A DNA stretch of 36,628 nt from an uncultured archaeon (GCA_902386115.1 CABMHZ010000050.1:1-36628), one strand, 5' to 3'. Shown: positions 3,397-19,983, counted from the stretch's first letter. The notes: generated by a model not told the origin, from the sequence alone. Numbers and translations are program-made.

Positions 3397-3470
3397 GCCT
3401 CGGTGGCTCAGCTTGGCAGAGCGAGAGATTTGTAATCTCTAGGTCGAGGGTTCAAACCCCTCCCGGGGCT
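3397..3470 (+). tRNA. tRNA-Thr (anticodon UGU)
   Basis: A full cloverleaf can be folded. The acceptor stem is GCCTCGG with CCGGGGC (one T-G wobble), the D arm is built on GCTC/GAGC, the anticodon stem is AGAGA/TCTCT with loop TTTGTAA, and the T arm is GAGGG-TTCAAAC-CCCTC. The anticodon TGT reads ACA/ACN threonine codons. The discriminator base is T and CCA is not encoded, as is common in archaea. There is no intron in the anticodon loop. Confidence 0.97.
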
Positions 3471-3605
3471 CTTTTAACCACATCAATAGCCTTTGGAAAT
3501 TATAAGCATAGGAATTTCCGTCTCTAAAGGAAGAGCTTACTGAACTGATATGTTGACGGCGAACGTGAAGAGAAAGAAAGGCAGTAGCCTCATAATATTG
3601 GTTAT

Positions 3606-4247
3606 TCACACCCTCTCTTCGATCTTTTTTAGGCTCTCTATTAATTCTTTTCCTGCCTGCGTCAACATGTAAACCTTCTCGCTATCTTGCTTAATAATAT
3701 GATATGACTTCAGGACACGAAGATGAAAACTGAGCTTAGTAGCTTCATCCATCTTAAGCATGTTTTTAATCTCTGTGAACTTAAGTTTACCTGTTTTATT
3801 TAGAAGTTTTACAATGTCTTTCCTTATTGGATTTGAGATCGCCTTAATTACATCAGATTCAAGGATTTGCGGATATTTATCAATTTCTGTCGTTGCAAGA
3901 ACCATCCTGATTTTTGTTTGAACCTCATCTATCTTAAATGGTTTCGTAATATAATCTGAAGCGCCTGCCTTCAATGCATCAACTGCATTTTCAATTGTTC
4001 CAAAAGCAGTAATTATGATTACGATGGTTTTGGGTTTTGTACGTTTTATTTCTCTCAGTACTTCCATTCCTCCCATGACCGGCATAATAAGATCAGTAAG
4101 GACAACGTCAAAATCTTTTTTCTTAATAGCCTCAAGTCCCAGTTGACCATTCTCAACAGAATCTACGTTATACCCTTCATCTTTTAATATTTCTTTCAAT
4201 GCCTCCCTCATTTTACTGTCGTCTTCTATTATCAAAATGTTTTTCAT
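3606..4247 (-). CDS. Response regulator with winged-helix output domain
   Basis: Residues 1-120 form a receiver domain: acidic pair in IIEDD (about 8-10), phospho-acceptor Asp52 in VLTDLIMP, switch threonine in IIITAFG and lysine in YITKPF (about 102). Residues about 128-205 look like an ArsR-type winged helix (SNPIRKDIVKLLNKTGKLKF... FHLRVLKSYHII), so the output is probably DNA binding, which is uncommon among archaeal receivers. The start is uncertain. A TTG at 4256 would overlap the kinase stop by 4 bp, while the ATG chosen here at 4247 gives the usual MKNILIIEDD beginning. It lies directly downstream of the sensor kinase in the same operon and about 2.3 kb from the first cytochrome gene, which is a possible but unproven target. 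Confidence 0.9.
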   Translation of the reverse strand: MKNILIIEDDSKMREALKEILKDEGYNVDSVENGQLGLEAIKKKDFDVVLTDLIMPVMGGMEVLREIKRTKPKTIVIIITAFGTIENAVDALKAGASDYITKPFKIDEVQTKIRMVLATTEIDKYPQILESDVIKAISNPIRKDIVKLLNKTGKLKFTEIKNMLKMDEATKLSFHLRVLKSYHIIKQDSEKVYMLTQAGKELIESLKKIEERV

Positions 4248-4252
4248 AAGTG

Positions 4253-5989
4253 TCAAGCCGGTAATTTTATTGTGAATGTCGTGCCGTTTCCCACTTCACT
4301 TTCTACTTCTATTGAGCCTTTATGGTTTTTGATGATCCCATAAGAGATCGAAAGACCAAGGCCGGTGCCTTCACCCGGCTCTTTTGTTGTAAAGAAGGGG
4401 TCAAATATTTTATCCAGGTCTTTTCTGGTTATGCCGCAGCCGTTATCGGAGATGCTTATTTCCACATGATCATGTTTTGCTAGAGTCTTAACTATTATTT
4501 CACCGTTTTCAGTGATTGATTGGATTGAATTCTTAAGAAGATTCATTAATACCTGTTGTATCTGACCGCGATCGGCAAAGATATATGGGAGAGGTTTAAA
4601 GGAGGTTTTCACCTCGATATCTTTTAACTGAGGGTTCAGGATGATCAATACATTATCTATCTCCTTATTTATATCTATTGATTCCATTTTGAACTCTGAT
4701 TGCCTGGCGAAATCAAGTAATCCTTTCACGATCAGCGCCGCCCTGTTTGCTTCATCAGCAATGACCCTGAGTTTTCCTTTGGTGTTCTCGTCCTTTGACT
4801 TATTTAACAACATCTGAGTGTATACGGAGATATTACCAATTGGGTTATTAATCTCATGCGCAACTCCTGCTGCCAGTTGCCCTATAGTAGCGAGTTTATC
4901 GGATTGCAAGAGCTGTTTTTCAAGTTGTTCCTTTTCCTTCAGTTCTGTGATATCTCTGATGATTCCTACAAAGGCTATAGGTTCGCCTTTGATGTCTTTA
5001 ACCATAGAAGTAGTCAGCAAGATGGGAAATTCTTTCCTGTCCTTACGCTTGACCCTGAGTTCCCCAACCCAGTGCCCTTTCTCTTTTATACTCGGGATTA
5101 TCACAGCGCTGGCAAACTCGGGATCCACATTCATTTCATTGACATGCTTTCCCTTGAATTCATCAGGAGAAAAACCGAATATCTTTTTTATTGCTTTGTT
5201 GGAATAGATAATGTAGCCATCCGTATCAGTGATCTGGATACCGTCAGGAGCTTCTTCCACGGCAGTCGAGAGCTTAAGGAGCTCACCCATATTCTTACTA
5301 AGGTTATTAGACATCTGGTTGAAAGCATTTGAAAGAGTCTGGAATTCATCATTAGTTGTGCCGGATTCAATTTTATACCCAAGGTTCCCTTTGCCTATTT
5401 CTTGGGCTCCCTTAAGGAGAGCACGCATCGGTCTTGTCAAATAAATTCCGGCGAAATAAGCCATCAAAATGCCCAGCACACTTTCCGCCAGGATGTTGGC
5501 GATCACGAAATTTGTTTGGTTTTTTATCTCTTCTTTCATGGATGTTCTATCGATTCCAATGTGAACAAACCCTTCCCTGCTACCATATACCGGAGCTTTA
5601 AAGTCAATAATATTTCCCACGGTAGCACTGGAGTTAGTGTTACAATCGAGAAGAAAATCCTTTGAGTATATATTTCCTATTAAATTATTCTGGGCATCTG
5701 TCATATATATGCATTTTACTTCACTATCTGCAATCATAATGTTGTTAGCAAGCCTGCTGAAGTTCCCGGAATCCTCATATGGCAAGCTACCACTACTTTC
5801 TTCAGCAAGATGTTTTACAAGGACATTCCCCCTCCTATTAAGCCCTTCAGACAATGTCTTGTCCAAATCAGAAAGCATAAAAGCAGCAGTCAGAATATCA
5901 AGGAGCACTATAATGGCAACTGTCAGGATAATGAATTTCTTGACTATTCCCCCACCTATAATTTTATTTAGTTTATCTTTTAGCACCAT
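4253..5989 (-). CDS. Membrane sensor histidine kinase (sensor-HAMP-PAS-HisKA-HATPase)
   Basis: A 578-residue kinase. Membrane segments at about 17-38 and 162-185 flank an extracytoplasmic sensor of about 120 residues that looks Cache-like (IYMTDAQNNLIGNIY... GFVHIGIDRTSM). A HAMP linker (about 186-238) is followed by a PAS domain (about 240-350, DGIQITDTDGYIIYSNKA). The phospho-accepting His378 sits in GVAHEINNPIGN. The ATP-binding boxes are LMNLLKNSIQS (N box), ISDNGCGI (G1) and GEGTGLGLSISYGII (G2). All catalytic motifs are present. The partner regulator follows in the same operon. The signal is unknown; the outside sensor means it could respond to a small extracellular ligand. The gene is divergent from the cytochrome locus across a 539-bp AT-rich gap. 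Confidence 0.93.
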   Translation of the reverse strand: MVLKDKLNKIIGGGIVKKFIILTVAIIVLLDILTAAFMLSDLDKTLSEGLNRRGNVLVKHLAEESSGSLPYEDSGNFSRLANNIMIADSEVKCIYMTDAQNNLIGNIYSKDFLLDCNTNSSATVGNIIDFKAPVYGSREGFVHIGIDRTSMKEEIKNQTNFVIANILAESVLGILMAYFAGIYLTRPMRALLKGAQEIGKGNLGYKIESGTTNDEFQTLSNAFNQMSNNLSKNMGELLKLSTAVEEAPDGIQITDTDGYIIYSNKAIKKIFGFSPDEFKGKHVNEMNVDPEFASAVIIPSIKEKGHWVGELRVKRKDRKEFPILLTTSMVKDIKGEPIAFVGIIRDITELKEKEQLEKQLLQSDKLATIGQLAAGVAHEINNPIGNISVYTQMLLNKSKDENTKGKLRVIADEANRAALIVKGLLDFARQSEFKMESIDINKEIDNVLIILNPQLKDIEVKTSFKPLPYIFADRGQIQQVLMNLLKNSIQSITENGEIIVKTLAKHDHVEISISDNGCGITRKDLDKIFDPFFTTKEPGEGTGLGLSISYGIIKNHKGSIEVESEVGNGTTFTIKLPA

Positions 5990-6528: not shown

Positions 6529-7650
6529 ATGAAAGCAAAAATGTCTTTATTCCTGATAGCCATCGCTGCTACAGGACTTTTCGCATTTCCAAACGTGTTA
6601 GCCACATTCGCAGGCTCACACACAATGGAAAAGCCATTAACCGATAGTAAAGGATTGGACTGTACAAAATGCCATGAATATATTCAAACAGAATTAAACC
6701 CAACAACATTGGCAAGTGGCGCTCTGGCTGCCCATAAAGAAGGGGCAGGAAATGTTGGATTCCTGGACTATATGGCCTTTGGAGAACCTGGTTCATACAA
6801 TTCTACATCCCTTAATTTAACAAATGGTACAGTAGCTCATACCGGAACTACTTTTATTGCTAAAGGCACGTCACAAGGTGGATCTCATACATTGTACACG
6901 GATGTATTGTACGTTATAGACCAGACCGATAAACTGGCATACCATATCACTGCCAACTGGAATGACGTAGCATACAACGATGTAAACGGCAATCCAATGT
7001 TCAACAGAACTTCAGTAACTATAAATCCCACAGATAGTTGGGTGGCAGAAGAAAGTCAAAGTCTCGATGCCAATGGAAACAGCCAAATTGAGGACAGGGA
7101 AGTCTGTAAGCTCTGTCACACTGCCGGATTCTTTGGTGTGGAAGGAACTCACACAGATTTGACCGTTGTAGGATGCACTAATACAAATTGCCATGGCAAC
7201 AAAAACAATGTAGGCAAGGTACAGGAATACTTCGGTACTCCAGATGACGGTAACATGAACGCAGGTTACAGGATTGCAAGGACACAGGACGCACACAGCA
7301 ACTTCTACATTGCTATGAACAGTACTGGCAGCGCTTATGCCAATGTGACAGCGGACTACTACACATGTCTTGCCTGCCACACGCATGTAGGTATGAAACT
7401 TACCATCAAGAGACCTGCAGCATACGATGTGAGCCTGAACAAGTCTGGTGCTACCATGGCTGATTACAAGAACAACAATGGTGCATGGTTCGAGTCTCTT
7501 GAGATCAACCACACAGCAACCAACTTTGGTACTAATGGAACTGGCACATTTGTTAATAATGCATCGCTTAACAGCAGCAATGTAACCATTATCAAAGACC
7601 CGACAAGTGTCTGGATACCAGAATCGAATAGTAACACATGGAACAAGTAA
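6529..7650 (+). CDS. Tetraheme c-type cytochrome, AGSHTME family (copy 1)
   Basis: A 373-residue exported cytochrome. The signal peptide (about 1-25, cut near NVLA) is followed at once by TFAGSHTMEKP. Four heme sites are visible: CTKCH (45-49), CKLCH (193-197), an unusual CTNTNCH (216-222, CX4CH) and CLACH (280-284). The 140-residue gap between hemes 1 and 2 suggests a separate beta-rich domain. Many N-x-S/T sites fit a glycosylated surface protein. It aligns by eye along its length with the cytochrome at 9174 (VVGCTxxxCHGN, HSN, VTADYxTCxxCHTxV), so the two are paralogs. The gene ends in a strong hairpin terminator, so it may be transcribed alone and highly. Its redox partner is unknown. Confidence 0.92.
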   Translation: MKAKMSLFLIAIAATGLFAFPNVLATFAGSHTMEKPLTDSKGLDCTKCHEYIQTELNPTTLASGALAAHKEGAGNVGFLDYMAFGEPGSYNSTSLNLTNGTVAHTGTTFIAKGTSQGGSHTLYTDVLYVIDQTDKLAYHITANWNDVAYNDVNGNPMFNRTSVTINPTDSWVAEESQSLDANGNSQIEDREVCKLCHTAGFFGVEGTHTDLTVVGCTNTNCHGNKNNVGKVQEYFGTPDDGNMNAGYRIARTQDAHSNFYIAMNSTGSAYANVTADYYTCLACHTHVGMKLTIKRPAAYDVSLNKSGATMADYKNNNGAWFESLEINHTATNFGTNGTGTFVNNASLNSSNVTIIKDPTSVWIPESNSNTWNK

Positions 7651-7669
7651 AAACGAATATAAACTTGGA

Positions 7670-7705
7670 AATGCCCCCTTCCAAAGGGGCATTCTTTCTT
7701 TTTTC
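7670..7705 (+). terminator. Strong hairpin terminator after cytochrome copy 1
   Basis: AATGCCCC (7670-7677) pairs perfectly with GGGGCATT (7686-7693) around an 8-nt loop. A T-rich run to about 7705 follows. It lies 20 bp after the cytochrome stop and before the next gene, which is the layout expected of an intrinsic-type terminator. Confidence 0.7.
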
Positions 7706-7755
7706 CTTAGCATACAAGCGTATTGTTAAAACTAATTAAATATCTTAAATTCAGG

Positions 7756-8424
7756 ATGAAAGCTCACACCATACTCCTATGCATTTTATTTCTCTTTGCT
7801 TTAGCCGCTCCTGTCCTGGGAGATCAGCATCCTGGCGACAAATACTGTAAGTACTGTCATAATAAACTCGGGGCGCCCGAGGAAGTCAGGTTAGCAGGTC
7901 AATGTTCAAGCGCCTGTCACATTTCAAAGCCCGATGCACACTCTAAACAAAGAGTAAAACCCTGGTATTACAGGCAGCGCTATTCCCTGCACCTGCAAAA
8001 TTCCGTATGTATGAAGTGTCATGGAAAAGGAACAGATGACATTCATGTAGTTCACAAGGATTTTAATGTAAGCTGCCTTTTCTGTCATTCAGCCAAAGGT
8101 TATACTTCAGAGATCGTAAAAGTGCCCTCTCAAAATAATCAGGATTCCTTTGTAAAACCTGCAAGCAAGGAATGCAGGTACTGCCACCAGGTAAATGGCT
8201 CGCAGCTGCATGATGTGCACGCGGCAAGACTCGAAAAAGCCTGTCCCACCTGCCATGGGGGCGGAGTTGAGCCAAAAAGGTCAAATGCTGGCTTTGGAGA
8301 AAGAGTTATGGCTGCGGGTTACGTTGAGGAAGGCATTATGCCTGTCAGGGTAGTTACCGAGCTGGTTGATGGATTATCATCTGAGATAAAAGAGATCATA
8401 GGACTTGCATTTAGCATGATTTGA
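7756..8424 (+). CDS. Hexaheme c-type cytochrome
   Basis: A 222-residue exported multiheme cytochrome. A signal peptide (about 1-22, ending AAPVLG) precedes six heme sites: CKYCH (31), CSSACH (50, an unusual CX3CH), CMKCH (85), CLFCH (107), CRYCH (140) and CPTCH (163). Extra His residues between the sites (for example HVVH, LHDVH) could be axial ligands. After the last heme, a tail of about 55 residues without Cys ends in a weakly hydrophobic helix that might touch the membrane or a partner. The ATG at 7756 is chosen because it starts a clean signal peptide; an upstream TTG at 7723 would add 11 residues. The next gene begins within 3 bp. It lacks the AGSHTME motif of its neighbours. Confidence 0.9.
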   Translation: MKAHTILLCILFLFALAAPVLGDQHPGDKYCKYCHNKLGAPEEVRLAGQCSSACHISKPDAHSKQRVKPWYYRQRYSLHLQNSVCMKCHGKGTDDIHVVHKDFNVSCLFCHSAKGYTSEIVKVPSQNNQDSFVKPASKECRYCHQVNGSQLHDVHAARLEKACPTCHGGGVEPKRSNAGFGERVMAAGYVEEGIMPVRVVTELVDGLSSEIKEIIGLAFSMI

Positions 8425-8426
8425 GT

Positions 8427-9170
8427 ATGCCTGAAGCACTTCAGTTTAAGCATTACAATTCTATAATCGATGTATTAAAAGCAATTCCACATGATATTAT
8501 TATTGCATCTTTTCTCCTTGCGATAATCCCTTTTTTGCTTTACAAATACAGGAAAAAAATATTTTTATTAATCATTTCCATCGCAGTCTTAGCTCAAAAA
8601 TTTAACCCCCGAAATAAGACTGAATCAGATGCTGCAAAGCTTATGAAGAACTATTATGAAACTGGCAAGAGCCAGCTCAGGGACTATTTTTTCGCAGGCA
8701 TGCTCATATTGATCTTCATTTTAGTAGGCACTCAGTCCGTTTATTTAGCTTTGGTTACCACCGAGTCTATGCGCCCTTATATTAACCGTGGGGACCTCGT
8801 AATTGCCGAGGGGCTGAGCACAAATTTCAGTGTCGGAGACATAATCGAGATACAGCCTCCGGGATATAGCGGAACTTATGTCCACAGGGTTGTGAGAAAG
8901 CTCTCGGATAATGAATGGAAGACTAAAGGCGATAACTGGAATTCGGAAGATGGTTGGACAGTAACCAGGGATATTGTTAAGGGAAAAGTGATAACCATGG
9001 ATAAGAAGGCAATTGTGATACCATATCTGGGCATTTATCTGATGCCTACCAATAACGTTGCACTTAGCCAGGATCCTACTTACAACTTCATAGTCAACTT
9101 TATCTCAACACTGAGGACTGTAGCCCCGGTGTTGATACTGATAATATTTATATTAATATTTAGAGGATGA
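8427..9170 (+). CDS. Signal peptidase I (archaeal/ER type)
   Basis: A 247-residue membrane protease. Two N-terminal hydrophobic segments (about 24-55) and a third (about 90-110) lead into the S26 core: nucleophile Ser114 in TTESMRPYINRGDLVI, His153 in TYVHRVV (the archaeal/ER enzymes use Ser-His rather than Ser-Lys), and Asp residues in KTKGDNWNSEDGW. A C-terminal membrane helix ends the protein. It would cut signal peptides outside the membrane. The long N-terminal membrane part is unlike the minimal housekeeping enzyme. The gene sits 2 bp after the hexaheme cytochrome stop and 3 bp before the next cytochrome start, so it is co-transcribed with exported cytochromes and may be devoted to them (inference). 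A TTG at 8421 is an alternative start. Confidence 0.88.
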   Translation: MPEALQFKHYNSIIDVLKAIPHDIIIASFLLAIIPFLLYKYRKKIFLLIISIAVLAQKFNPRNKTESDAAKLMKNYYETGKSQLRDYFFAGMLILIFILVGTQSVYLALVTTESMRPYINRGDLVIAEGLSTNFSVGDIIEIQPPGYSGTYVHRVVRKLSDNEWKTKGDNWNSEDGWTVTRDIVKGKVITMDKKAIVIPYLGIYLMPTNNVALSQDPTYNFIVNFISTLRTVAPVLILIIFILIFRG

Positions 9171-9173
9171 AAA

Positions 9174-9980
9174 ATGCGATTGCATAAAAATCTGCCCATT
9201 ATACTTTTGATCATAGTTCTAATTTACTTCCTGCCTGCATTCCTGGCATCCTATGCCGGTGGTCATACCATGGAATCCGCAAATGCCACAGAACTGAACT
9301 GTTTGACCTGCCATGATTACATTGCCAGAGAGCTAAACTTCACAACCTCATCCAGGAGCGTTTTGAATAGCCATCTTCAGGCAGCTAATAATACTAATTA
9401 TACAACCTTCATAAAATATGGTTACCATTACAATGCGTCAGAGGGAAGGATTTACACCACACCTGACCCTTCAAAGTGGGATTCTGGCAGCTTAGCGGAA
9501 AGCACCACTTATATCTATTATGTATCAGGATCATGGATAGGCAATAGGAGTGGGGTCATACAGTATGCTACCGTAAACCTGGAAAGAAATGGTCTCCCTG
9601 GAATTCAAATGGAAGAATCCTGCATTTTCTGCCATAGTGCAGATATCCATTCCGCTTCAACCCATACAGGCGTAACTGTAGTGGGCTGTACCGATATAAA
9701 ATGCCATGGGAACTCAAGCGGTATTGGATACGGGAAGGAATTTTATCCAACAGTGATGACAGGATACAACTTATCAAACAATAATGTCCATTCTAACTGG
9801 TTTAAGAGCATGGGCAATCGAACCAGCCCATATGATTATACAATTCACGGCTCCAATGTAACTGCGGATTACTTTACATGCATGGGCTGCCATACCTATG
9901 TACAGGTCAATGCTAATATAACATGGCCTTCACCGTATATGCATGACAACTTTTCTGCCCCAAAGGTCAGATACCCCTGA
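9174..9980 (+). CDS. Tetraheme c-type cytochrome, AGSHTME family (copy 2)
   Basis: A 268-residue paralog of the cytochrome at 6529. The signal peptide (about 1-26, ending FLAS) is followed by YAGGHTMESA. The heme sites are CLTCH (43-47), CIFCH (150-154), CTDIKCH (172-178, CX4CH) and CMGCH (236-240), in the same order as copy 1. The central domain between hemes 1 and 2 is shorter. The TGA at 9978-9980 comes earlier than in copy 1. The DNA after it still seems to encode, in two frames, a DPASIW stretch (compare DPTSVW at the end of copy 1) and a membrane helix, so the C-terminus may have been lost. The start is 3 bp after the signal peptidase stop. Confidence 0.9.
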   Translation: MRLHKNLPIILLIIVLIYFLPAFLASYAGGHTMESANATELNCLTCHDYIARELNFTTSSRSVLNSHLQAANNTNYTTFIKYGYHYNASEGRIYTTPDPSKWDSGSLAESTTYIYYVSGSWIGNRSGVIQYATVNLERNGLPGIQMEESCIFCHSADIHSASTHTGVTVVGCTDIKCHGNSSGIGYGKEFYPTVMTGYNLSNNNVHSNWFKSMGNRTSPYDYTIHGSNVTADYFTCMGCHTYVQVNANITWPSPYMHDNFSAPKVRYP

Positions 9981-10220
9981 AAATTACTATTTTGGTCAGT
10001 AATAATATAACACTTCAGCGTATTTTGTATTTTTTTGCTTTTCATAATTTTCAGGATCCAGCGTCAATATGGTGGCAGTGCGTACTGGACTGTAAACATG
10101 ACCCTTATCGCTTTGATAGCATTGGGGTTGATAGGGATATTTTTTATTTATGCAATTCTGGTCATGATTTTTATCGAAATAGGGGATTTTATTGATAGCC
10201 GCTTTGCCATAAAACTTTAG
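9981..10220 (+). pseudogene. Possible decayed C-terminal tail of the copy 2 cytochrome, or a small membrane ORF
   Basis: In the same frame as the upstream cytochrome, after TGA 9978-9980 and a second in-frame stop, a stretch reads YWTVNMTLIALIALGLIGIF and on to FIYAILVMIFIEIGD, a clear membrane helix with an ATG within it. In the next frame the DNA reads HNFQDPASIWWQ, resembling KDPTSVW near the end of the 6529 cytochrome. A single one-base shift near 10070-10080 would join the two. This suggests a cytochrome C-terminus with a membrane anchor broken by stops and a shift. Alternatively the 40-61-residue single-helix ORF ending at 10220 is a real small protein. The end overlaps the protease gene by 32 bp in convergent orientation. 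Confidence 0.4.
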
Positions 10221-11721
10221 AAAAAATGATATATAAAAAATACCCGATCACAATTACTGTAACGAATTTCACAATGATTACTGAAATATTTTTCTTCAGA
10301 CCCAGTTTCTCGCAAAAGTAATCCAGAGCCTCTTTTAAAAATAATCCACCATCAAGCTTATAGATCGGCAGGCTGTTGAAAAGTGCTATTTGAATATTCA
10401 TCCAGCCTATCCAGAATAAGATGTCTGCAAAAGATAAATACCAGCTTCCCGTGAATTTTAAAATCCCTGCTGGCTGAAACAAATTTTTAAGTACGCCATT
10501 AAATCCTGAAAAACCTGGAAGTTCAATTAGACTTGCCATGGGTGCGATCAGCAGATACTGAATACCCCTAGGTTTAAGAACAACATTTTTAAAAGTGTTA
10601 AGGAAACTGTTACCATCGACTTCAAAAGTACTGAACCCCAGGATATCTTCTGAAACTACAATGCCGAGCCAGCCTTTACTAATATTCTCCGGGGGGTTCG
10701 CCAGGATCAAAGTCACATTGCGTTCTGTTCCGTTATCTAACAATCCCAGTGAGATCATCTGCCCTGGATGCGTGGTATTCATATAATTTATGAATTCAGA
10801 AAGGGTATTCACAGTTATGTTCCCTATGTTAGTTATTCTCACACCCCTTTTCAGGCCGGCATATCTGGCAGGATAAGCGGGGGCAGTATCGACAACCATT
10901 ATCCCTCTTTCCTTTCCGGGAGTTATCCACTGGTTTTCTGTTTTTCCATCCTTTACCATAGTCAGCTTAACGCTGCTGGAATTTTTTGCATACGCCAGCA
11001 ACTGGCTTGCATTGTCTAAGGGTATATCATCTACTCTTGTGATTATCATTCCGTTTACTATCCCAAGCTTTTCTGCATGGGAACCAGGAACAACATAGTC
11101 GACGCTCACGTTGCCGGTAACTTCAAGCCCGCCAAGGACAGGAACAAAAAAAATGAAGAAAGCAAGAAGTGCTACCAGTAAATTAGCAGCCACGCCTGCG
11201 CAGATGAGCTTTGTCCGGGTAAATCTGGGTCTATTTTCATCAAAAAAGTATTGTTCATCTACATCTGCAAAGGCACCTATCGGAATGGGCGCGAAAACAA
11301 TACCCAATGCTCTTGTTTTTCCTTCACTGGCAAAAGCATGTCCAAGTTCATGGACGAACAGAGCAACAAGAAGACCAATCCAGCCCAGCCAAACCGGTAT
11401 GAATTCATTTATCATTGGAATCAAAAGGAAATTCCCCACAGGGGTGACTGTAGCAACATGATGAAATGGTACAGAAGGCAACGGAAAAAAGTAGCTTCCA
11501 GCAAAAATCAGAAGCAAATAAAATATCATGGTGAGTACAAAAAATAATATCGAAAACCATCCAAAATTGACTTTTTTAGGGGCAGGTATATTTTTGAAAA
11601 TCGGGCAGAGAATGAAAGGACCATAACCTCTGACTCCAAAACGGTCCAATATTCCCGTTTTTTTCAATGCCACAACTAATAGCGTCCATGCTGAAAACGC
11701 CACAGCTAATTCTAACCACAC
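10189..11721 (-). CDS. Site-2-type membrane zinc metalloprotease (M50) with PDZ domains
   Basis: A 510-residue intramembrane protease of the RseP/S2P type. HELGH (124-128) is the zinc and catalytic motif inside a membrane helix, and LPIYKLDGG (about 451-459) supplies the third zinc ligand Asp, so it should be active. Between them are two PDZ-like repeats (about 210-290, VDYVVPGSHAEKLGI, and about 285-365, PARYAGLKRGVRI), usual for substrate gating. At least six membrane segments are visible. Such enzymes cut membrane-bound regulators or leftover signal peptides. The start is GTG at 11721, one base after the stop of the upstream membrane-protein gene, so both are one operon, facing the cytochrome genes. 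Its substrate is unknown; surface-protein quality control is a guess from context. Confidence 0.9.
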   Translation of the reverse strand: MWLELAVAFSAWTLLVVALKKTGILDRFGVRGYGPFILCPIFKNIPAPKKVNFGWFSILFFVLTMIFYLLLIFAGSYFFPLPSVPFHHVATVTPVGNFLLIPMINEFIPVWLGWIGLLVALFVHELGHAFASEGKTRALGIVFAPIPIGAFADVDEQYFFDENRPRFTRTKLICAGVAANLLVALLAFFIFFVPVLGGLEVTGNVSVDYVVPGSHAEKLGIVNGMIITRVDDIPLDNASQLLAYAKNSSSVKLTMVKDGKTENQWITPGKERGIMVVDTAPAYPARYAGLKRGVRITNIGNITVNTLSEFINYMNTTHPGQMISLGLLDNGTERNVTLILANPPENISKGWLGIVVSEDILGFSTFEVDGNSFLNTFKNVVLKPRGIQYLLIAPMASLIELPGFSGFNGVLKNLFQPAGILKFTGSWYLSFADILFWIGWMNIQIALFNSLPIYKLDGGLFLKEALDYFCEKLGLKKNISVIIVKFVTVIVIGYFLYIIFSKVLWQSGYQ

Positions 11722-11722
11722 T

Positions 11723-13141
11723 TTAGTGCACCATTTTTAATTTCTTTTTTCTTCTGTTTATAAAAATATCGATTATAAGAAGTCCCAATCCCCCCACATA
11801 CAATAATAACAACAGAATTATATTCGATATAAACTCATCCAGTGTGAGAATCTGGAAAAGCAATACACCTGCACCGCTCAAGAAAATCCCCAGCAAATAG
11901 ATAATAATGGTACCTCCTGAAATGGGAATATATTTCTTGCCCATAAGGGAGAATCCCGAAACCAGCAATATCAGACCAAGAGCACCTGATTCAACATATT
12001 TCTCCGGGCTCAAAAACGGAAGGTCCATCAAAAAACCGATTGTACTGAAGATAATTGATACCATCCCGGCAATCAAGATTATTTTGCCGAAATTATATAA
12101 TATCGTGGCAGGGTTAAGGGATTTGAATCGTGCGAAGATTTTATACGGTATTAACCTGTGGAATATCTTTGTTTCTTCAGTTATTTTTGTAAAGATACCT
12201 GGTCTTGGTTCCTCTAATTCAGAAACCGTTGACTTTTGCCTTGCTCTTATGCTGGAAATGGCTTTGTCGAGTATAGAGCGTGACTCTTTTTCCAAAGATT
12301 CTTTTTTTTCTTTTTGAGATGCCTTTTTTGTTGCTTCCTTTGTGACCTTATCTAAAATAGTCTGAATCGATTTTGGCAGGAGCCCGGTCTTTATATATTT
12401 AATATAGCTGTAAAGAGCGTAGACATAGATTAAGAGTCCAATAAAGGTATAATATAACGCCTGATTATACTCAAAGACTGCCCTTAAAGCGATGGAAAGG
12501 GAAGGGACTATCAGCATAAAGATTGCAACAATATAGTATGATCTTGAATCTTCCCATGCATTAAAGAAATTAGCTATGATAACATACCACCCAATCGCAA
12601 GTAACATCAAAGAGTAAGGAACAAGGTTGAAAGGGTGCTGGTCTAAAAATACAAAGAGACCCACGCTTGCAGAGCCCAGAAGTCCGACTTGCATTAAAAA
12701 CTCCCCCCAGTTTAGACTCTCCTGGTCAAAAACTTTTTTTGATGTTTCGTAATTTACTGACCCTTGTAATGCATCAAGCCTTTCGATAAGTTTCTCATTT
12801 ACCATCCTTGCAACGATTACCTCTTGCACAAGGGGGGAGGCAAATGTTGCAAAGTCCTGGAATGTTTCTTCTATATTGGAAGTTTTAGTTTTCTTAGAAT
12901 CATTTATTGTGATGATGGCTCTAGTACAGGAAAATATTGCAAAAACAGATGCCACGAACAAAGCTCCCCGGAAGATATTCTCGCCCGTCAACCCCTCTCC
13001 TTGCTTTAGTCCTGAAGTTATTTGGGTAAATAATACTACTGCCACCAGAATTAGGATAATAATAGCGACTATTATTCCAACCAAAAGCTCATTTGAGGTC
13101 TGGCGGATATATATTTTTTTATGTTCTATTGTATTCTTCAC
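11723..13141 (-). CDS. Polytopic membrane protein of unknown function
   Basis: I do not recognise this 472-residue protein. It shows about ten hydrophobic segments: two near the N-terminus (about 19-40 and 58-78), four at about 145-252, and four at about 345-460. Between the last two groups is a charged stretch rich in Lys, Glu and Ser (about 260-335, KKASQKEKKESLEKESRS), probably a cytoplasmic coiled coil. There are no Cys-heme motifs and no obvious catalytic residues. The start is a GTG at 13141, the first standard start in the open frame. It is followed within one base by the site-2 protease gene, so a joint role at the membrane is likely, for example as a partner or substrate. The C-terminus is strongly basic (NRRKKKLK). 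Confidence 0.75.
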   Translation of the reverse strand: MKNTIEHKKIYIRQTSNELLVGIIVAIIILILVAVVLFTQITSGLKQGEGLTGENIFRGALFVASVFAIFSCTRAIITINDSKKTKTSNIEETFQDFATFASPLVQEVIVARMVNEKLIERLDALQGSVNYETSKKVFDQESLNWGEFLMQVGLLGSASVGLFVFLDQHPFNLVPYSLMLLAIGWYVIIANFFNAWEDSRSYYIVAIFMLIVPSLSIALRAVFEYNQALYYTFIGLLIYVYALYSYIKYIKTGLLPKSIQTILDKVTKEATKKASQKEKKESLEKESRSILDKAISSIRARQKSTVSELEEPRPGIFTKITEETKIFHRLIPYKIFARFKSLNPATILYNFGKIILIAGMVSIIFSTIGFLMDLPFLSPEKYVESGALGLILLVSGFSLMGKKYIPISGGTIIIYLLGIFLSGAGVLLFQILTLDEFISNIILLLLLYVGGLGLLIIDIFINRRKKKLKMVH

Positions 13142-13886
13142 GTTGGATCCAACATTTCTTATGAGTTTGTCTAATTTTACTTCTTGGGTCTTATTAATTT
13201 TACTATTGCCATAATTTTAACATACAATTAATAGAAAGAAAATCGTCTCGACTTCAAAATAGTTTAAGATCTTATCATACTTTTGAAATTCTCAAGATTC
13301 GCACTTTCAATACAATCTGCTTCAAAGGTTCTGCACTGTAGATTTAATTCAATTCTATCCTATCCTATTCAATTTTTTGACATGGTAATTAATTTTTGGG
13401 ATAAGTTAAATATAATAAGAGGTAAATTTGGGTATGAATTAAGTGAAACTCACATTATATAACATTAATTTAAAAAATAATTGAATTAACAGGTTTTATT
13501 TAAAAAATAATTCAATTGCTAACTTAATTGTAAAATTTAAATACTATGAAGACGCAAAATATTCATAATACAGAAAAAATTTTATACAAACTTTATAACA
13601 GGAACAATCTTAAAAACTACAAAATCTATATCCAAATTTGAGCCAACTGGCAATATATCCGGTCCGTATATAATACAAAACCCGAAAAATATATGGACGA
13701 TAATTTTAGCAAGGGAAAATAAGCTCTCCGTGATGAAAAATGAGAAAATATGGATAAATAAGGTCATTTTTTGTTAAAATGTCAGAAGATGCTCGTCATA
13801 AAAGTTCAAATTACATGTGAAATCTCAGGTTATAAAATGACTGAAAATATCAGTAGTGCATTTGAAGAGAAATGGAGGTGAAATGC
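13142..13886. other. 745-bp AT-rich intergenic region with short repeats
   Basis: No convincing gene is seen. It separates the leftward membrane-protein operon from the rightward cytochrome/surface-protein operon, so promoters for both are expected here. A 30-bp-period direct repeat starts at about 13468: ATTTAAAAAATAATTGAATT and then ATTTAAAAAATAATTCAATT at about 13498. A short CTATC/CTATC-like repeat lies near 13365. A Shine-Dalgarno-like GGAGGTGA at 13874-13881 is well placed for the GTG at 13887. A 61-codon leftward ORF at 13582-13767 is probably random. Confidence 0.5.
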
Positions 13887-14903
13887 GTGAAAACCTTTTC
13901 ATATCTTTTATTTTTGGCTTTATTTACGATCATTATTTTTACTTATAGTGCAGCTGGGGCATATTTGATCTAAGGTTATGTCATTAATGCATCCAGTGGA
14001 CTTGCCCTGAATAACGCCACAGTACAGACAAATACCAGTCAATCCACAATTTCTGGCGCTACTGGTTTTTATAATTTCACAGGTCTATCCAATGGAACGT
14101 ATATCGTAAATGCAAGTCTCGCAGGTTATTTTACCAATTCCACGAACGTATCCATCAACGGTACAGACATCACCAGTGCAAATATCTCATTATCTGGCAT
14201 CAGTAGTGGAGGTGGTAGCGGAGGTGGTGGAGGAGGCATTGGTGGCGGCGGTGTTTTTTATAATATAAGTGGCTATGTACTCGATTCATCCACCTTAAAA
14301 GCTCTGAAAGGAGCCAATGTAACTACAAATACAAGCCTGCAAACTACCAGTAACTTGACAGGTCTTTACATCTTCTCTGGATTAACCAATGGTAGTTATA
14401 TAATTCAAGCGGGCTTATTCGGATATGTCAATAACTCAATAAACATAACGATAAGCGGCGCTGATATTACCAATGCTGATATTTATCTTGCCTTTTCCGC
14501 AATCCCATGTACCGACTGTCATTACTCCTTCAGTTACATGAATAGTTCCGGAAGACCGGATTTATATGTAAATCAGACCCTGGATAATGAAAGTGTGCAT
14601 GCGGCGCTCAATTGCAGGGACTGCCATACCAACACCACAGTGCATCCCCCTCCCAAGTCAGGATGGAAGTGGTGCGAGGACTGCCATGCAAACCAGCAAA
14701 ACCCTCGAACGAATAAGAAAAGGCACAATATTGTAAACAACCCCTGGAACAATCTATACAACGGGATAAGCGTAGTAAATATAACATCATGTATAACTTG
14801 CCATGACTCTACACTTTACAATAACTCCATAAACATCTACGGAAGAGAGAAAGGAATTGATTGCGATTACTGTCACACATTTCCAGATAATGTTATTGAA
14901 TAG
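13887..14903 (+). pseudogene. Fusion of two carboxypeptidase-regulatory-like domains with a pentaheme cytochrome, interrupted by TAA
   Basis: Reading from GTG 13887 (GGAGGTGA is 5 nt upstream) gives a signal peptide of about 25 residues, then AYLI, a TAA at 13971-13973, then GYVINASSG in the same frame. Codons 30-105 and 124-205 are two similar beta-sandwich repeats (NISGYVLDSST, TGLYIFSGLTNGSYII) of the carboxypeptidase-regulatory/PEGA kind. They are joined by a linker of almost only Gly and Ser. Residues 208-335 carry five sites: CTDCH, CRDCH, CEDCH, CITCH and CDYCH. In repeat 2 the matching position is NISGYV, so the TAA replaces a Ser codon (TCA to TAA). No ATG, GTG or TTG restart lies between it and 14355. 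It is either a recent nonsense mutation, a sequence error or readthrough. Everything else is intact. Confidence 0.75.
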
Positions 14904-14911
14904 GTCGGATA

Positions 14912-15343
14912 ATGATTAAAAAACCTATACTACTCATTCTAGCCTCAATAATACTTTTTTTATATGTAATACAGCCGCTCTTAGGCACTTTTGCCGGAAG
15001 CCATACGATGGAAGAACAGAAGATTTCCACAGGTTACGGTAATATTTATATCTGTGTAAACTGCCATGAAGAGGAAGTAGTTTTGAATAACCTCTCATCC
15101 CATAGCTCGGCAGGATGTGTATGCCATGGATATGCTCCAAATCTAACGGCGGAGTATAACATCAATGCAGCCCATAATCTGACCAAGAACCTTTATTGCA
15201 CCAACTGCCATGCCAATTACGATATTAATGGACAACAGGAAATATATCCCGGGATAATAACTTCCAATCAGTCCGGCCATTATATTAAAAAAAATACGAC
15301 TATGGTTTATGAACACGCACAAAAGTTCTTTTCAGGGAAGTGA
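14912..15343 (+). CDS. Small multiheme cytochrome, AGSHTME family (copy 3)
   Basis: A 143-residue exported protein. The signal peptide (about 1-25) is followed by TFAGSHTMEEQ, the same N-terminal motif as the cytochromes at 6529 and 9174. Two standard heme sites are seen, CVNCH (48-52) and CTNCH (96-100), plus CVCH (69-72) with only one residue between the cysteines. That site may bind heme unusually, or not at all. It lacks the long central domain of its relatives. The ATG is 8 bp after the stop of the pentaheme fusion gene and its own TGA is 4 bp before the surface-protein gene, so all three form one operon. It could be a small electron carrier between membrane and surface, which is inference. 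Confidence 0.85.
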   Translation: MIKKPILLILASIILFLYVIQPLLGTFAGSHTMEEQKISTGYGNIYICVNCHEEEVVLNNLSSHSSAGCVCHGYAPNLTAEYNINAAHNLTKNLYCTNCHANYDINGQQEIYPGIITSNQSGHYIKKNTTMVYEHAQKFFSGK

Positions 15344-15347
15344 TAAT

Positions 15348-17534
15348 ATGTTAAAAACGTCTTACAAAATAGTATTGATTATGAGTTTATTGTTAATTAC
15401 TTTGCCCATATGCATGGCTGAAGAAGCGGTATCCGAAAAGATGGCAGATTGGACACACGCAAAGAGTATCGATGAACAGTCTATTACATGGGTAGGATAT
15501 TATAATACTACGATGAACTGGGGGGACAAGATCGATATAAATGATTGGGCTCTCGGGAATTTTACAATGGAACTGACCGACCTTATGAAGGATGCGACGG
15601 GAAGCAAAATAATCGGCGCCCTTATGACAATTACGGGTGAGAATAAAAAAAGCCAGGTTGCTATAGGCAGTGGTGAATCGCAAACCGTAAACTTCAACAC
15701 ACCGTTCGACAACGAAATGAAAATAAGTGCAACTATTAACGGAGAAAGAACCTGGAGCAGGGAAATTATGCAACCAAATGTATCAGTCCAGGTTTTTCTG
15801 AGAGGTAAACCGGATATTAATCTTTCCTCCAATATTTATACAGAAAATCCCGAATCTGGCACCGATATCAACACAACCGATAATGTAAACTCAAATACAT
15901 TATTTTATATCCAGATTTATATTAATAATATAGGTAATGATACTCTTAGAAATGCTCAACTTGATGTTGACCTTACCAATTTCACAATTCCGCAGGAGCA
16001 ACTATCTGTACAGCGGGGAGGTATGGATTTTAAATACATCGGGCACTCCCTAATCTATAATTTAAATGATTTAAAATTCGATGATTCAAAGAATATTACT
16101 CTTGAAATAGTATCGCCCATGACGCCTGTTAATAAAACTTTTAATATTCCACTAATATTAACAGGCAATGATAATAAAAATGTGGCATATACTTTCCGGT
16201 CAAGCGAACAGTTTGTCGTAACACCGTTTATTGAGATTAAAAAAGAGATAGGCCCTTATTTTAATTATTCAGGCACTGATGTGCTATACGTAGGTGAGTC
16301 ATTCTTTACCGATCTCAACATAAAAAATCATGGGAATCGGGACCTTGCAATTAATTTAACGGATTCTATACCAGATTCTTTTGAATATCAAACAAATGAA
16401 AATAAAAGCCTGAATTGGTCCATAACTATACCTGCTGTATCTTCCCGCACAATAACATATTATATTAAACCAGTAAGATATAAAGAAACCGAAATTATAC
16501 CAAAGGCGACAGCCGTATTTGAATTTGATGGGAAGAAATATGATGTCGTTTCAAATGATATCGAAGTAAAGGTAATAGGGGCAGACGTGTTACTTACCAA
16601 ACATGTAACGATTAATCAGCAAAATTATGGAATCTTGAATGCCACCATTACGATAAATGCCAGGAATCTTGGTGACCAGCGTGTTGTTATCAAAATGAAC
16701 GATACACTTCCGGATAATTCAAGTTTGATAAACGGTACCATTTCAGAGGATAATATATTTCTTGATAACGGGGAGTCGTATAGTTATGCCTATGAAATCT
16801 CAACTCCATTAAGGGAAAGGATAATTCTGCCGCCCGCAAAAGGATATTTCGTGGATTTCAGATCATACATCGAAAAAGATAGCAGCAAAAAGGAGGATTT
16901 CTGGAATAAAATCGAATCAAATCAACCGGTTATCGAGACACGGCAAACTGCACCCGTTATAACACCGGCAAACGTGAGTCAAAAGCCGGAGAATATTACC
17001 CAGCCTTTTGTGAAAAAAGAGGATAGAAGAACAAAACTGGAAATATTAAGGGATTTTATACTTGAACTCATCAGTCCATTCACGGGTAAAACGAAGATAG
17101 AAGAATCCAAACCTGTATCCCGGCAGGCAATCCAGCCAACCGTCAAACGGATAGAAGAGACGCAATCCTCGTTTACATGGACTCTTGGTTGGGAGAGCCA
17201 GGTGAATGCCAATGCCAGCGGCGGAACATGGAAGGCATCGGATACACCGGGTTCAAGGGTGAGTGTGTCTTTTATAGGGACATGCGTGACTTTGCTCTAT
17301 GCTGCAAACCCGGGAGGGGGTATAGCGAATATCGAACTTGATGGAAAAGGTTATCCGGATATCGACATGTATTCGCTTATTCCTGAAAGCGGTATCAAAA
17401 GGACAATAGCCAGTGGCATCGAAAATGCACGGCACACTCTAACTATCACAGTTTCAAATGCCAGAAACCCATCATCATCAAATTCTTTGGTGGTAGTAGA
17501 TGCTGTTGAAATCACTGAGCCAGGTATTACGTAA
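15348..17534 (+). CDS. Large secreted surface protein with DUF11/CARDB-like repeats and a C-terminal lectin-like domain
   Basis: A 728-residue exported protein with a signal peptide (about 1-24, ending ICMA). The middle (about 165-540) holds several Ig-like beta-sandwich repeats of the kind found in DUF11/CARDB proteins (NNIGNDTLRNAQL, DLNIKNHGNRDLAINLTDSI, TINARNLGDQRVVIKMNDTL). A Pro/Thr-rich charged linker follows at about 540-610. The last 120 residues (ASGGTWKASDTPGSRVSV... ANIELDGKGY... RHTLTITVSNARNP...VVVDAVEI) resemble a beta-sandwich often appended to sugar-binding exoproteins. There is no heme motif, C-terminal membrane anchor or visible sorting signal. Many N-glycosylation sequons occur. 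The start is ATG 15348, 4 bp after the cytochrome stop. It is likely a scaffold for the co-transcribed cytochromes (inference). Confidence 0.8.
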   Translation: MLKTSYKIVLIMSLLLITLPICMAEEAVSEKMADWTHAKSIDEQSITWVGYYNTTMNWGDKIDINDWALGNFTMELTDLMKDATGSKIIGALMTITGENKKSQVAIGSGESQTVNFNTPFDNEMKISATINGERTWSREIMQPNVSVQVFLRGKPDINLSSNIYTENPESGTDINTTDNVNSNTLFYIQIYINNIGNDTLRNAQLDVDLTNFTIPQEQLSVQRGGMDFKYIGHSLIYNLNDLKFDDSKNITLEIVSPMTPVNKTFNIPLILTGNDNKNVAYTFRSSEQFVVTPFIEIKKEIGPYFNYSGTDVLYVGESFFTDLNIKNHGNRDLAINLTDSIPDSFEYQTNENKSLNWSITIPAVSSRTITYYIKPVRYKETEIIPKATAVFEFDGKKYDVVSNDIEVKVIGADVLLTKHVTINQQNYGILNATITINARNLGDQRVVIKMNDTLPDNSSLINGTISEDNIFLDNGESYSYAYEISTPLRERIILPPAKGYFVDFRSYIEKDSSKKEDFWNKIESNQPVIETRQTAPVITPANVSQKPENITQPFVKKEDRRTKLEILRDFILELISPFTGKTKIEESKPVSRQAIQPTVKRIEETQSSFTWTLGWESQVNANASGGTWKASDTPGSRVSVSFIGTCVTLLYAANPGGGIANIELDGKGYPDIDMYSLIPESGIKRTIASGIENARHTLTITVSNARNPSSSNSLVVVDAVEITEPGIT

Positions 17535-19218: not shown

Positions 19219-19983
19219 TTGTGGAGAAATGTTCTCTCGGACGAAGGAAAAAAAATCGCAAAAAACGCTGAGAGAGCCCAGGCATCTGGCGATCAAAGGC
19301 TCGCAAGAGAGCTGTACCTGAAAGCCATTTCAAAGTTCGTGCAGGCGACCGAGATATCAGGGGATTTTAGTGAGGTCAGTGTTTTACGAAGTCTTGTAAG
19401 TTATTATAATGAACGAGTCAAGGCGCTTGATGATGAATTATCCTGTGATCCGGTATTGGAATCCGTGGCGTTCATGCCTGAGAAAAAACAAACACATGAC
19501 ATAGAGATAACCGAACTTCTCAGTGGAAGCGGTGTTGAGGGGGCAGTATTCGGAGCGGTTCTCGGTATTGCGATTGAGATAAGCCTCGAAGGAAGAGAGG
19601 GGCATGCAATTGGTACAGCCTTTATTATAGGGGATGCAGCGAGTGTCATGGCGCGCTCAAGGCAGCTCGTGCTGAACCCGTTCGAGGGGCACAGCAGGGA
19701 TAAAAGAAAACTGACAGACCCGGATATCAGGGATAATATCAAGGAGTTCGCGCAGCTTGACGGGATTTTCGTTGTTTCAGGGGACGGCGTGGTGGAAGCT
19801 GCGGGAAGGTATATCACTATGGATACCGGGGGGGTAAAATTACCGGGGGGACTGGGGACAAGACATTCATCGGTCGCAGCTATCACGCATGCGACAAAGG
19901 CGATAGGGGTAGTGGTGTCCCAGAGCGGCGGGGTGATCAGGATATTTAAGGATGGGAAGATTGCGGCAACGGTAAAGCCTTAG
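19219..19983 (+). CDS. dacZ: Diadenylate cyclase (c-di-AMP synthase) with a helical N-terminal domain
   Basis: Residues about 95-254 match the DisA_N/DAC domain that joins two ATP into cyclic di-AMP. Visible blocks are GREGHAIGTAFIIGD (126-139), NPFEGHSRD, LDGIFVVSGDGVVEAAGRY (180-198) and GTRHSSVAAITHATKAIGV (213-231). The usual DGA motif reads DGI (181-183) and RHR reads RHS (215-217), as in some distant members, so activity is likely but not certain. Residues 1-85 form a helical region (KNAERAQASGDQRLARELYLKAISKFVQA) that resembles an MIT- or TPR-like hairpin, not the pyruvate-kinase-like domain I expected from archaeal DacZ. The only standard in-frame start after the upstream stop is TTG 19219. 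In archaea c-di-AMP is linked to osmotic control. The 3' end overlaps an antisense toxin gene. Confidence 0.85.
   Translation: MWRNVLSDEGKKIAKNAERAQASGDQRLARELYLKAISKFVQATEISGDFSEVSVLRSLVSYYNERVKALDDELSCDPVLESVAFMPEKKQTHDIEITELLSGSGVEGAVFGAVLGIAIEISLEGREGHAIGTAFIIGDAASVMARSRQLVLNPFEGHSRDKRKLTDPDIRDNIKEFAQLDGIFVVSGDGVVEAAGRYITMDTGGVKLPGGLGTRHSSVAAITHATKAIGVVVSQSGGVIRIFKDGKIAATVKP

Follow-up and report, generated by a model that had tools for sequence, protein, structure and literature searches.

We describe here a multiheme cytochrome locus on a 36,628-nucleotide contig (CABMHZ010000050.1 of GCA_902386115.1; C50 in our coding) from an uncultured archaeon, the whole of which we refer to as the window. 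The genome is 2.2 Mb in size and 74% complete, and its relatives belong to Ca. Methanoperedens. An earlier note on this DNA had proposed that positions 6529 to 17534 form an extracellular electron-transfer locus with its own processing proteases; the genes it listed are all real, with open reading frames where it had placed them except for the start of one cytochrome gene. They comprise five multiheme cytochrome genes (P1, C2, C4, C5 and C6), a signal peptidase (SP), a membrane protein (P6), a metalloprotease (M50) and a surface protein (SURF), and the locus reaches further left than had been noted, into a two-component system at 3606-5989 (Table 1). Genomes of relatives are coded G0xx, their contigs Cxx and individual loci Lxxx.

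Cytochromes and proteases of the locus

A motif count in the five cytochromes gives 21 heme sites, in agreement with the earlier estimate of about 21, of which 18 are canonical CXXCH motifs and three are widened (two CX4CH and one CX3CH). In P1, C4 and C6, FAGSHTME-like residues directly follow the signal peptide. A wider signature, GxFALPxTxS/[LMFY]F-x-G-x-H, lies 8-20 residues ahead of the first CXXCH in 90 of the 94 cytochromes found with a tetraheme profile, a frequency that is not independent because the profile used to pick them includes the N terminus. In ten tetraheme cytochromes (profile A1) the only invariant histidines outside the heme motifs are His31, which belongs to the signature, His67, His164 and His206, and in a more diverse set of 12 sequences His31, His67 and His206 are still invariant. 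With the signature histidine invariant and four extra histidines available for four hemes, it is plausible that this residue, at the N terminus of the mature protein, serves as a distal heme ligand. This set of four invariant histidines appears to be a new observation.

The sole match of the A1 profile in the PDB is the nanowire cytochrome AvECN (8e5g, E 2.3e-5), with the similarity mainly in residues 6-61, and P1 matches the same entry weakly through its N terminus. The AvECN/MmcX clade is reported from Methanoperedenaceae, ANME-1 and ANME-2 (anaerobic methanotrophic archaea), Syntropharchaeales and Archaeoglobales (PMC11176372). P1 and C4 resemble these tetraheme proteins in having four hemes, a similar length and an N-terminal FxGxH after the signal peptide, but the sequences are distant and P1 has a C-terminal extension; polymerisation of the window cytochromes would be speculative. 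The OmcZ-type nanowire cluster of Methanoperedens (Ouboter 2024, PMC10874420) comes from the same genus and likewise groups cytochrome genes with a protease of their own, but it encodes an OmcZ homologue and the serine protease OzpA, families unrelated to those of the window.

C5 had been given a start at 14355. Its frame runs upstream to a GTG at 13887 that is preceded by a ribosome site and encodes a signal peptide followed by two beta-repeat domains, and it is broken by a TAA at 13971-13973, where the uninterrupted G024 homologue (612 aa, 77% identical over the aligned part) reads Ser (AYYISGYV vs AYLI-stop-GYV). As sequenced, the open frame left after the TAA is without a signal peptide, and the stop may reflect a pseudogene, a strain variant or an assembly error. 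The C6 family (window 14912-15343, L082, L083, L084, L089 and L091) has an invariant GC[VI]CHGY between two CXXCH sites; this CXCH is kept in six homologues and is possibly a non-canonical heme site. The surface protein gene probably starts at 15348 instead of 15309.

SP is wedged between two cytochrome genes as had been noted, 3 bp from C4 and, given the ATG at 8427, 2 bp from C2; the alternative TTG at 8421 would overlap C2 by 4 bp. It has the Ser116, His155, Asp171 and SMxP box of archaeal/endoplasmic reticulum-type signal peptidase I, all invariant in 12 sequences. It is divergent and scores below curated model cut-offs (TIGR02228 48.2 vs 51.85; PF10502 21.1 vs 22.9), so its membership in archaeal-type signal peptidase I rests on the catalytic residues. 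M50 is, as described, a protease with two PDZ domains, and its HELGH at 124, its NSLPIYKLDG at 449 (NxxPxxxLDG) and a PF02163 score of 74.5 against a cut-off of 27.2 place it among the M50 site-2 proteases. Homologues with about 34% identity occur in 56 of 60 related genomes, methanogens included, away from the locus, and M50 is tied to the locus in the window alone, by the 1-bp gap to P6 and a shared promoter element. The proposal of dedicated processing proteases is thus half right, in that the neighbourhood of SP is conserved and the homologues of M50 are scattered across relatives.

Table 1. Features of the locus, in window coordinates
Feature	Position	Strand	Basis
Response regulator, receiver domain and winged helix (DUF7347)	3606..4256	-	Pfam Response_reg 2.8e-34, DUF7347 7e-10
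Sensor histidine kinase (HAMP, PAS, HisKA, HATPase), divergent from P1	4253..5989	-	Pfam
Promoter element, degenerate palindrome array and TATA-like box, upstream of P1	6199..6391	+	71% over 232 bp vs G009 copy, E 1e-20
P1, tetraheme cytochrome (CX2CH, CX2CH, CX4CH, CX2CH), FAGSHTME after signal peptide	6529..7650	+	Heme motifs
C2, six-heme cytochrome (5 CXXCH and CX3CH)	7723..8424	+	Heme motifs; homologues beside SP and P1 in G009, G015, G024
SP, archaeal-type signal peptidase I, ATG 8427 likely	8421..9170	+	TIGR02228 E 1e-12; S116/H155/D171
C4, tetraheme cytochrome (3 CXXCH and 1 CX4CH), YAGGHTME	9174..9980	+	63% identity G015/G024, 47% G009; profile A1
M50 metalloprotease, two PDZ domains	10189..11721	-	Pfam M50 9.9e-21; 1 bp downstream of P6
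P6, long paralogue, poor in Trp, within the 8x TMH family of membrane proteins	11723..13141	-	A2 profile E 9e-25
Second promoter element copy, P6-M50 side, same relative orientation	13411..13536	-	75.6% over 127 bp vs P1 copy, E 1e-18 to 1e-20
C5, signal peptide, two carboxypeptidase-regulatory-like repeats, five hemes, in-frame TAA 13971-13973	13887..14903	+	G024 homologue
C6, small cytochrome (2 CXXCH and conserved CXCH), FAGSHTME	14912..15343	+	76-77% identity in G015/G024
SURF, surface protein (likely start 15348), signal peptide, no C-terminal transmembrane helix	15309..17534	+	About 60% identity in G009, G015, G024 only

Conserved neighbourhood and the 8x TMH family

In G015 (contig C7) and G024 (contig C12), C4, C5, C6 and SURF are contiguous and are followed by P6 on the opposite strand and then by P1, SP and C2. 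Identities to the window are high in the first block (C4 63%, C5 77%, C6 76-77%, SURF 58-59%) and lower in the second (P6 33%, P1 27-29%, SP 35-45%, C2 28-31%); in the window the two blocks of this set are exchanged, and M50 and P6 lie between C4 and C5. Parts of the locus are spread over three contigs in G009. The earlier note had looked to co-occurrence in related genomes as the check on its proposal, with scattered homologues counting against it, and the cytochromes, SP, P6 and the surface protein do stand together in G015 and G024; M50 does not keep their company, and the adjacent two-component system was missing from the genes listed for that check.

The best matches of SURF (about 60%), long P6 (32-33%) and SP (38-43%) are all in G009, G015 and G024. 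By an NFACT marker, G011, G017 and G013 (86-87%) are closest to the window genome, yet these three are without window-type copies of SURF, P6 and SP; G009 is at 78% and G015 at 73% (G024 was outside that search). The distribution is therefore patchy, and arose by transfer or loss. No viral or Borg-like contigs were found. A tRNA-Thr(TGT) gene (window 3397-3471) follows SecD and is syntenic in the compared relatives, with different genes following it in each. A mobile island was considered on the grounds that homology with these relatives stops at the 3' end of the tRNA gene, and it is not claimed because no att repeat was found in the window.

P6 was assigned to no named family, and a scan of named genomes with the single sequence gave no confirmed match. 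It is matched at E 9e-25 by the A2 profile of the 8x TMH (transmembrane helix) family, and this similarity together with the taxonomic range appears to place it in that family, as described by Chadwick et al. 2022; the named matches of the profile are in Methanoperedens, ANME-2, Methanophagales, Argoarchaeum, GoM-Arc1 and Archaeoglobaceae. P6 had been described as a ten-helix protein, a figure that holds for its relatives, whereas a hydropathy scan finds nine helices in P6 itself. It keeps three Trp residues against the 6-10 of canonical members, with W185 retained and WxW lost, and is not Trp-rich; we take it to be a derived member, longer and Trp-poor. A model of P6 made with AlphaFold 2 (mean predicted local distance difference test score, pLDDT, 69) has no fold match in the PDB.

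A P6-like gene lies within 5 kb of an SP-like gene in 39 of 63 cases across the order, and in 35 of these 39 pairs SP comes first and the two genes share a strand; the other four (window, G015, G024 and G034) are on opposite strands. A signal peptidase-8x TMH gene pair beside MHC-B and CcmF2 has already been described by Chadwick et al. 2022 (PMC9012536), and the window pair is similar in that an archaeal signal peptidase stands near a multi-helix protein beside multiheme cytochromes, apparently in the same family and the same taxonomic range (ANME, Argoarchaeum, Archaeoglobales). It differs in that it is not beside CcmF2 or MHC-B (no Ccm gene is among the identified window genes), P6 is long and Trp-poor, P1 and P6 share a promoter element, and M50 is in the P6 operon.

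Other arrangements were also seen. At L084:15355-18243 in G009, a C2-type cytochrome gene is flanked by two different signal peptidase genes and adjoins an 8x TMH gene, and shorter SURF relatives adjoin 8x TMH genes. At L123, L126 and L129 of Archaeoglobaceae, the pair has as its neighbours a SURF-like gene and a small gene for a membrane winged helix-turn-helix-like protein, with type IV pilin-like genes also adjoining at L123 and L126. A record labelled Omnitrophota (L105) has an ANME-type SP-8x TMH-cytochrome cluster and is probably a mis-binned contig.

Among 296 genomes of the phylum, the signature-cytochrome profile is found in 48, 8x TMH in 50 and both in 45. When restricted to the 151 genomes with PF01578 (Cytochrom_C_asm), 43 have both, three the cytochrome only, five 8x TMH only and 100 neither (phi 0.88), and the same split is seen within families f9 and f10. 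Methanosarcina-type genomes, which do carry the assembly proteins, have neither the signature cytochrome nor 8x TMH. The 8x TMH family thus tracks the signature cytochromes and not c-type cytochromes generally, an association that appears to be new; the Fisher p of 1e-43 overstates independence because the genomes are related.

Two-component system and promoter array

The non-coding DNA ahead of P1 includes a 127-bp stretch that recurs upstream of P6 (75.6%, E about 1e-20) in the same relative orientation. When the G009 copy is used as query, 12 sites are found in 11 genomes, the window included, all within the genus, and these precede eight signature cytochromes, one other multiheme cytochrome, two SURF-like genes and P6. 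Where the contig extends far enough, the gene divergent from the element is usually a homologue of the window kinase (57-80%) or regulator (80%). A regulator homologue with 80% identity stands beside the same element in G018, and at G009:C60 the genes for kinase, regulator and P6 follow one another on a single strand.

Within the element, 16-bp palindromes of the form TTGAA-N6-TTCAA repeat at a mean spacing of 29.8 bp (35 spacings, 28-31). TATATAA lies 8 bp past the last palindrome in nine of the ten promoter-proximal arrays, the tenth reading TTTATAA, and shuffled sequences have no such arrays. In this organisation it looks like an activator array, and a literature search found no report of such a two-component/array system. 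The element was also considered as an RNA and rejected, since neither of the two window copies folds better than shuffled sequence (z -1.1 and -0.7). The G009 copy does fold better, probably because of its palindromes, and the only Rfam match is the tRNA. The leaders between TATA box and ATG at L175-L181 are 91-173 nt long and partly conserved, with inverted repeats such as CCCAAATT/AATTGGG, and may be structured 5' untranslated regions. Further along the window, 19219-19983 encodes a diadenylate cyclase domain of the DisA type, preceded at the N terminus by an MIT-like stretch.

Models for the function of the locus

We consider it fairly probable that the chromosome of a Ca. Methanoperedens species here carries an extracellular electron-transfer locus that has its own regulation and probably its own processing. 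From the observed gene content, conserved neighbourhood, co-occurrence and shared element, we infer each of the following biochemical steps. The membrane histidine kinase would phosphorylate the response regulator, which, judging from position, would bind the phased palindromes that immediately precede the TATA boxes and would activate the P1-C2-SP-C4 and P6-M50 transcripts. Apocytochromes would be exported by Sec and receive heme from a Ccm system encoded elsewhere, and SP would cleave after ...LA, releasing the N terminus [TS][FY]AGxH, whose exposed His, being invariant, could ligate one heme on the distal side, either in its own subunit or in a neighbouring one. P6 might help SP or an export or assembly step, M50 may remove signal peptides or misprocessed protein, and C5, C6 and the surface protein would form the cell-surface end. 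Electron transfer from membrane to surface is likely, as it fits the AvECN-type cytochrome family, and a dedicated processing route can reasonably be hypothesised. A bolder reading, which we think rather unlikely, is a dedicated secretion branch for wire-forming cytochromes in which GxFALPxTxS/xFxGQHxW is read by its own signal peptidase/8x TMH complex, the exposed His ligates a heme in the following subunit, cleavage itself thereby licensing polymerisation, and in Methanoperedens a two-component switch acts on an operator array phased at 30 bp.

Several observations weigh against an electron-transfer locus of this kind. The 8e5g match spans chiefly the signal peptide and first heme, and the AlphaFold 2 model of C4 (pLDDT 39) is too poor for a fold search. 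C5 is interrupted by its stop codon, and P6 has lost most of the conserved Trp of its family. The palindrome arrays of the window are degenerate and fall short of a strict definition, so that these copies are assigned by homology, and G015 and G024 carry the gene set without a detectable element. The Archaeoglobaceae SP-8x TMH pair has no cytochrome within 5 kb, its neighbours being SURF-like and in some cases pilin-like genes.

This last arrangement is what one would expect if SP, 8x TMH and SURF were a general archaeal module for secreting surface proteins or filaments, with cytochromes as one client in ANME. A SURF-like gene lies within 3 kb of 17 of 42 8x TMH genes (by a profile built partly from these members), SP weakly resembles SipW models, and SipW cleaves TasA, which forms fibres (PMC9674648). 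The tapA-sipW-tasA operon of Bacillus subtilis similarly encodes a dedicated signal peptidase with a polymerising secreted protein, but it has neither cytochromes nor an 8x TMH protein and is an analogy only. Against such a general module, which we regard as unlikely, 8x TMH follows the signature cytochromes phylum-wide, and inside Archaeoglobaceae too. A role for P6-type proteins in handling heme during cytochrome maturation, which Chadwick et al. 2022 proposed for 8x TMH from its Trp residues (PMC9012536), draws on the Trp-rich loop, conserved in canonical members, and on the genomic association with cytochromes; however, P6 and its three long relatives have lost most of the Trp, the P6 model is without fold similarity to any solved protein, and many Ccm-competent genomes have no 8x TMH, and we likewise think it improbable. 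That an ordinary cytochrome cluster came by chance to lie beside housekeeping proteases, or is a decaying island, would account for the scattered M50 homologues, the nonsense codon in C5, the patchy distribution and the position after tRNA-Thr, but is hard to square with the conserved neighbourhood, the shared promoter element, the co-occurrence and the intact frames other than C5, and it seems to us very improbable.

Most parts of the proposed electron-transfer locus have known relatives, whereas the two-component switch, its palindrome array and the signature at the signal peptide appear to be undescribed. They bear on the question of how ANME archaea make, sort and regulate the cytochromes that export electrons in methane oxidation. 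The signature and the co-occurrence point to SP and 8x TMH as candidate machinery specific to wire-type cytochromes, and the array with its neighbouring kinase and regulator is a concrete regulon candidate for extracellular electron transfer in this uncultured group.

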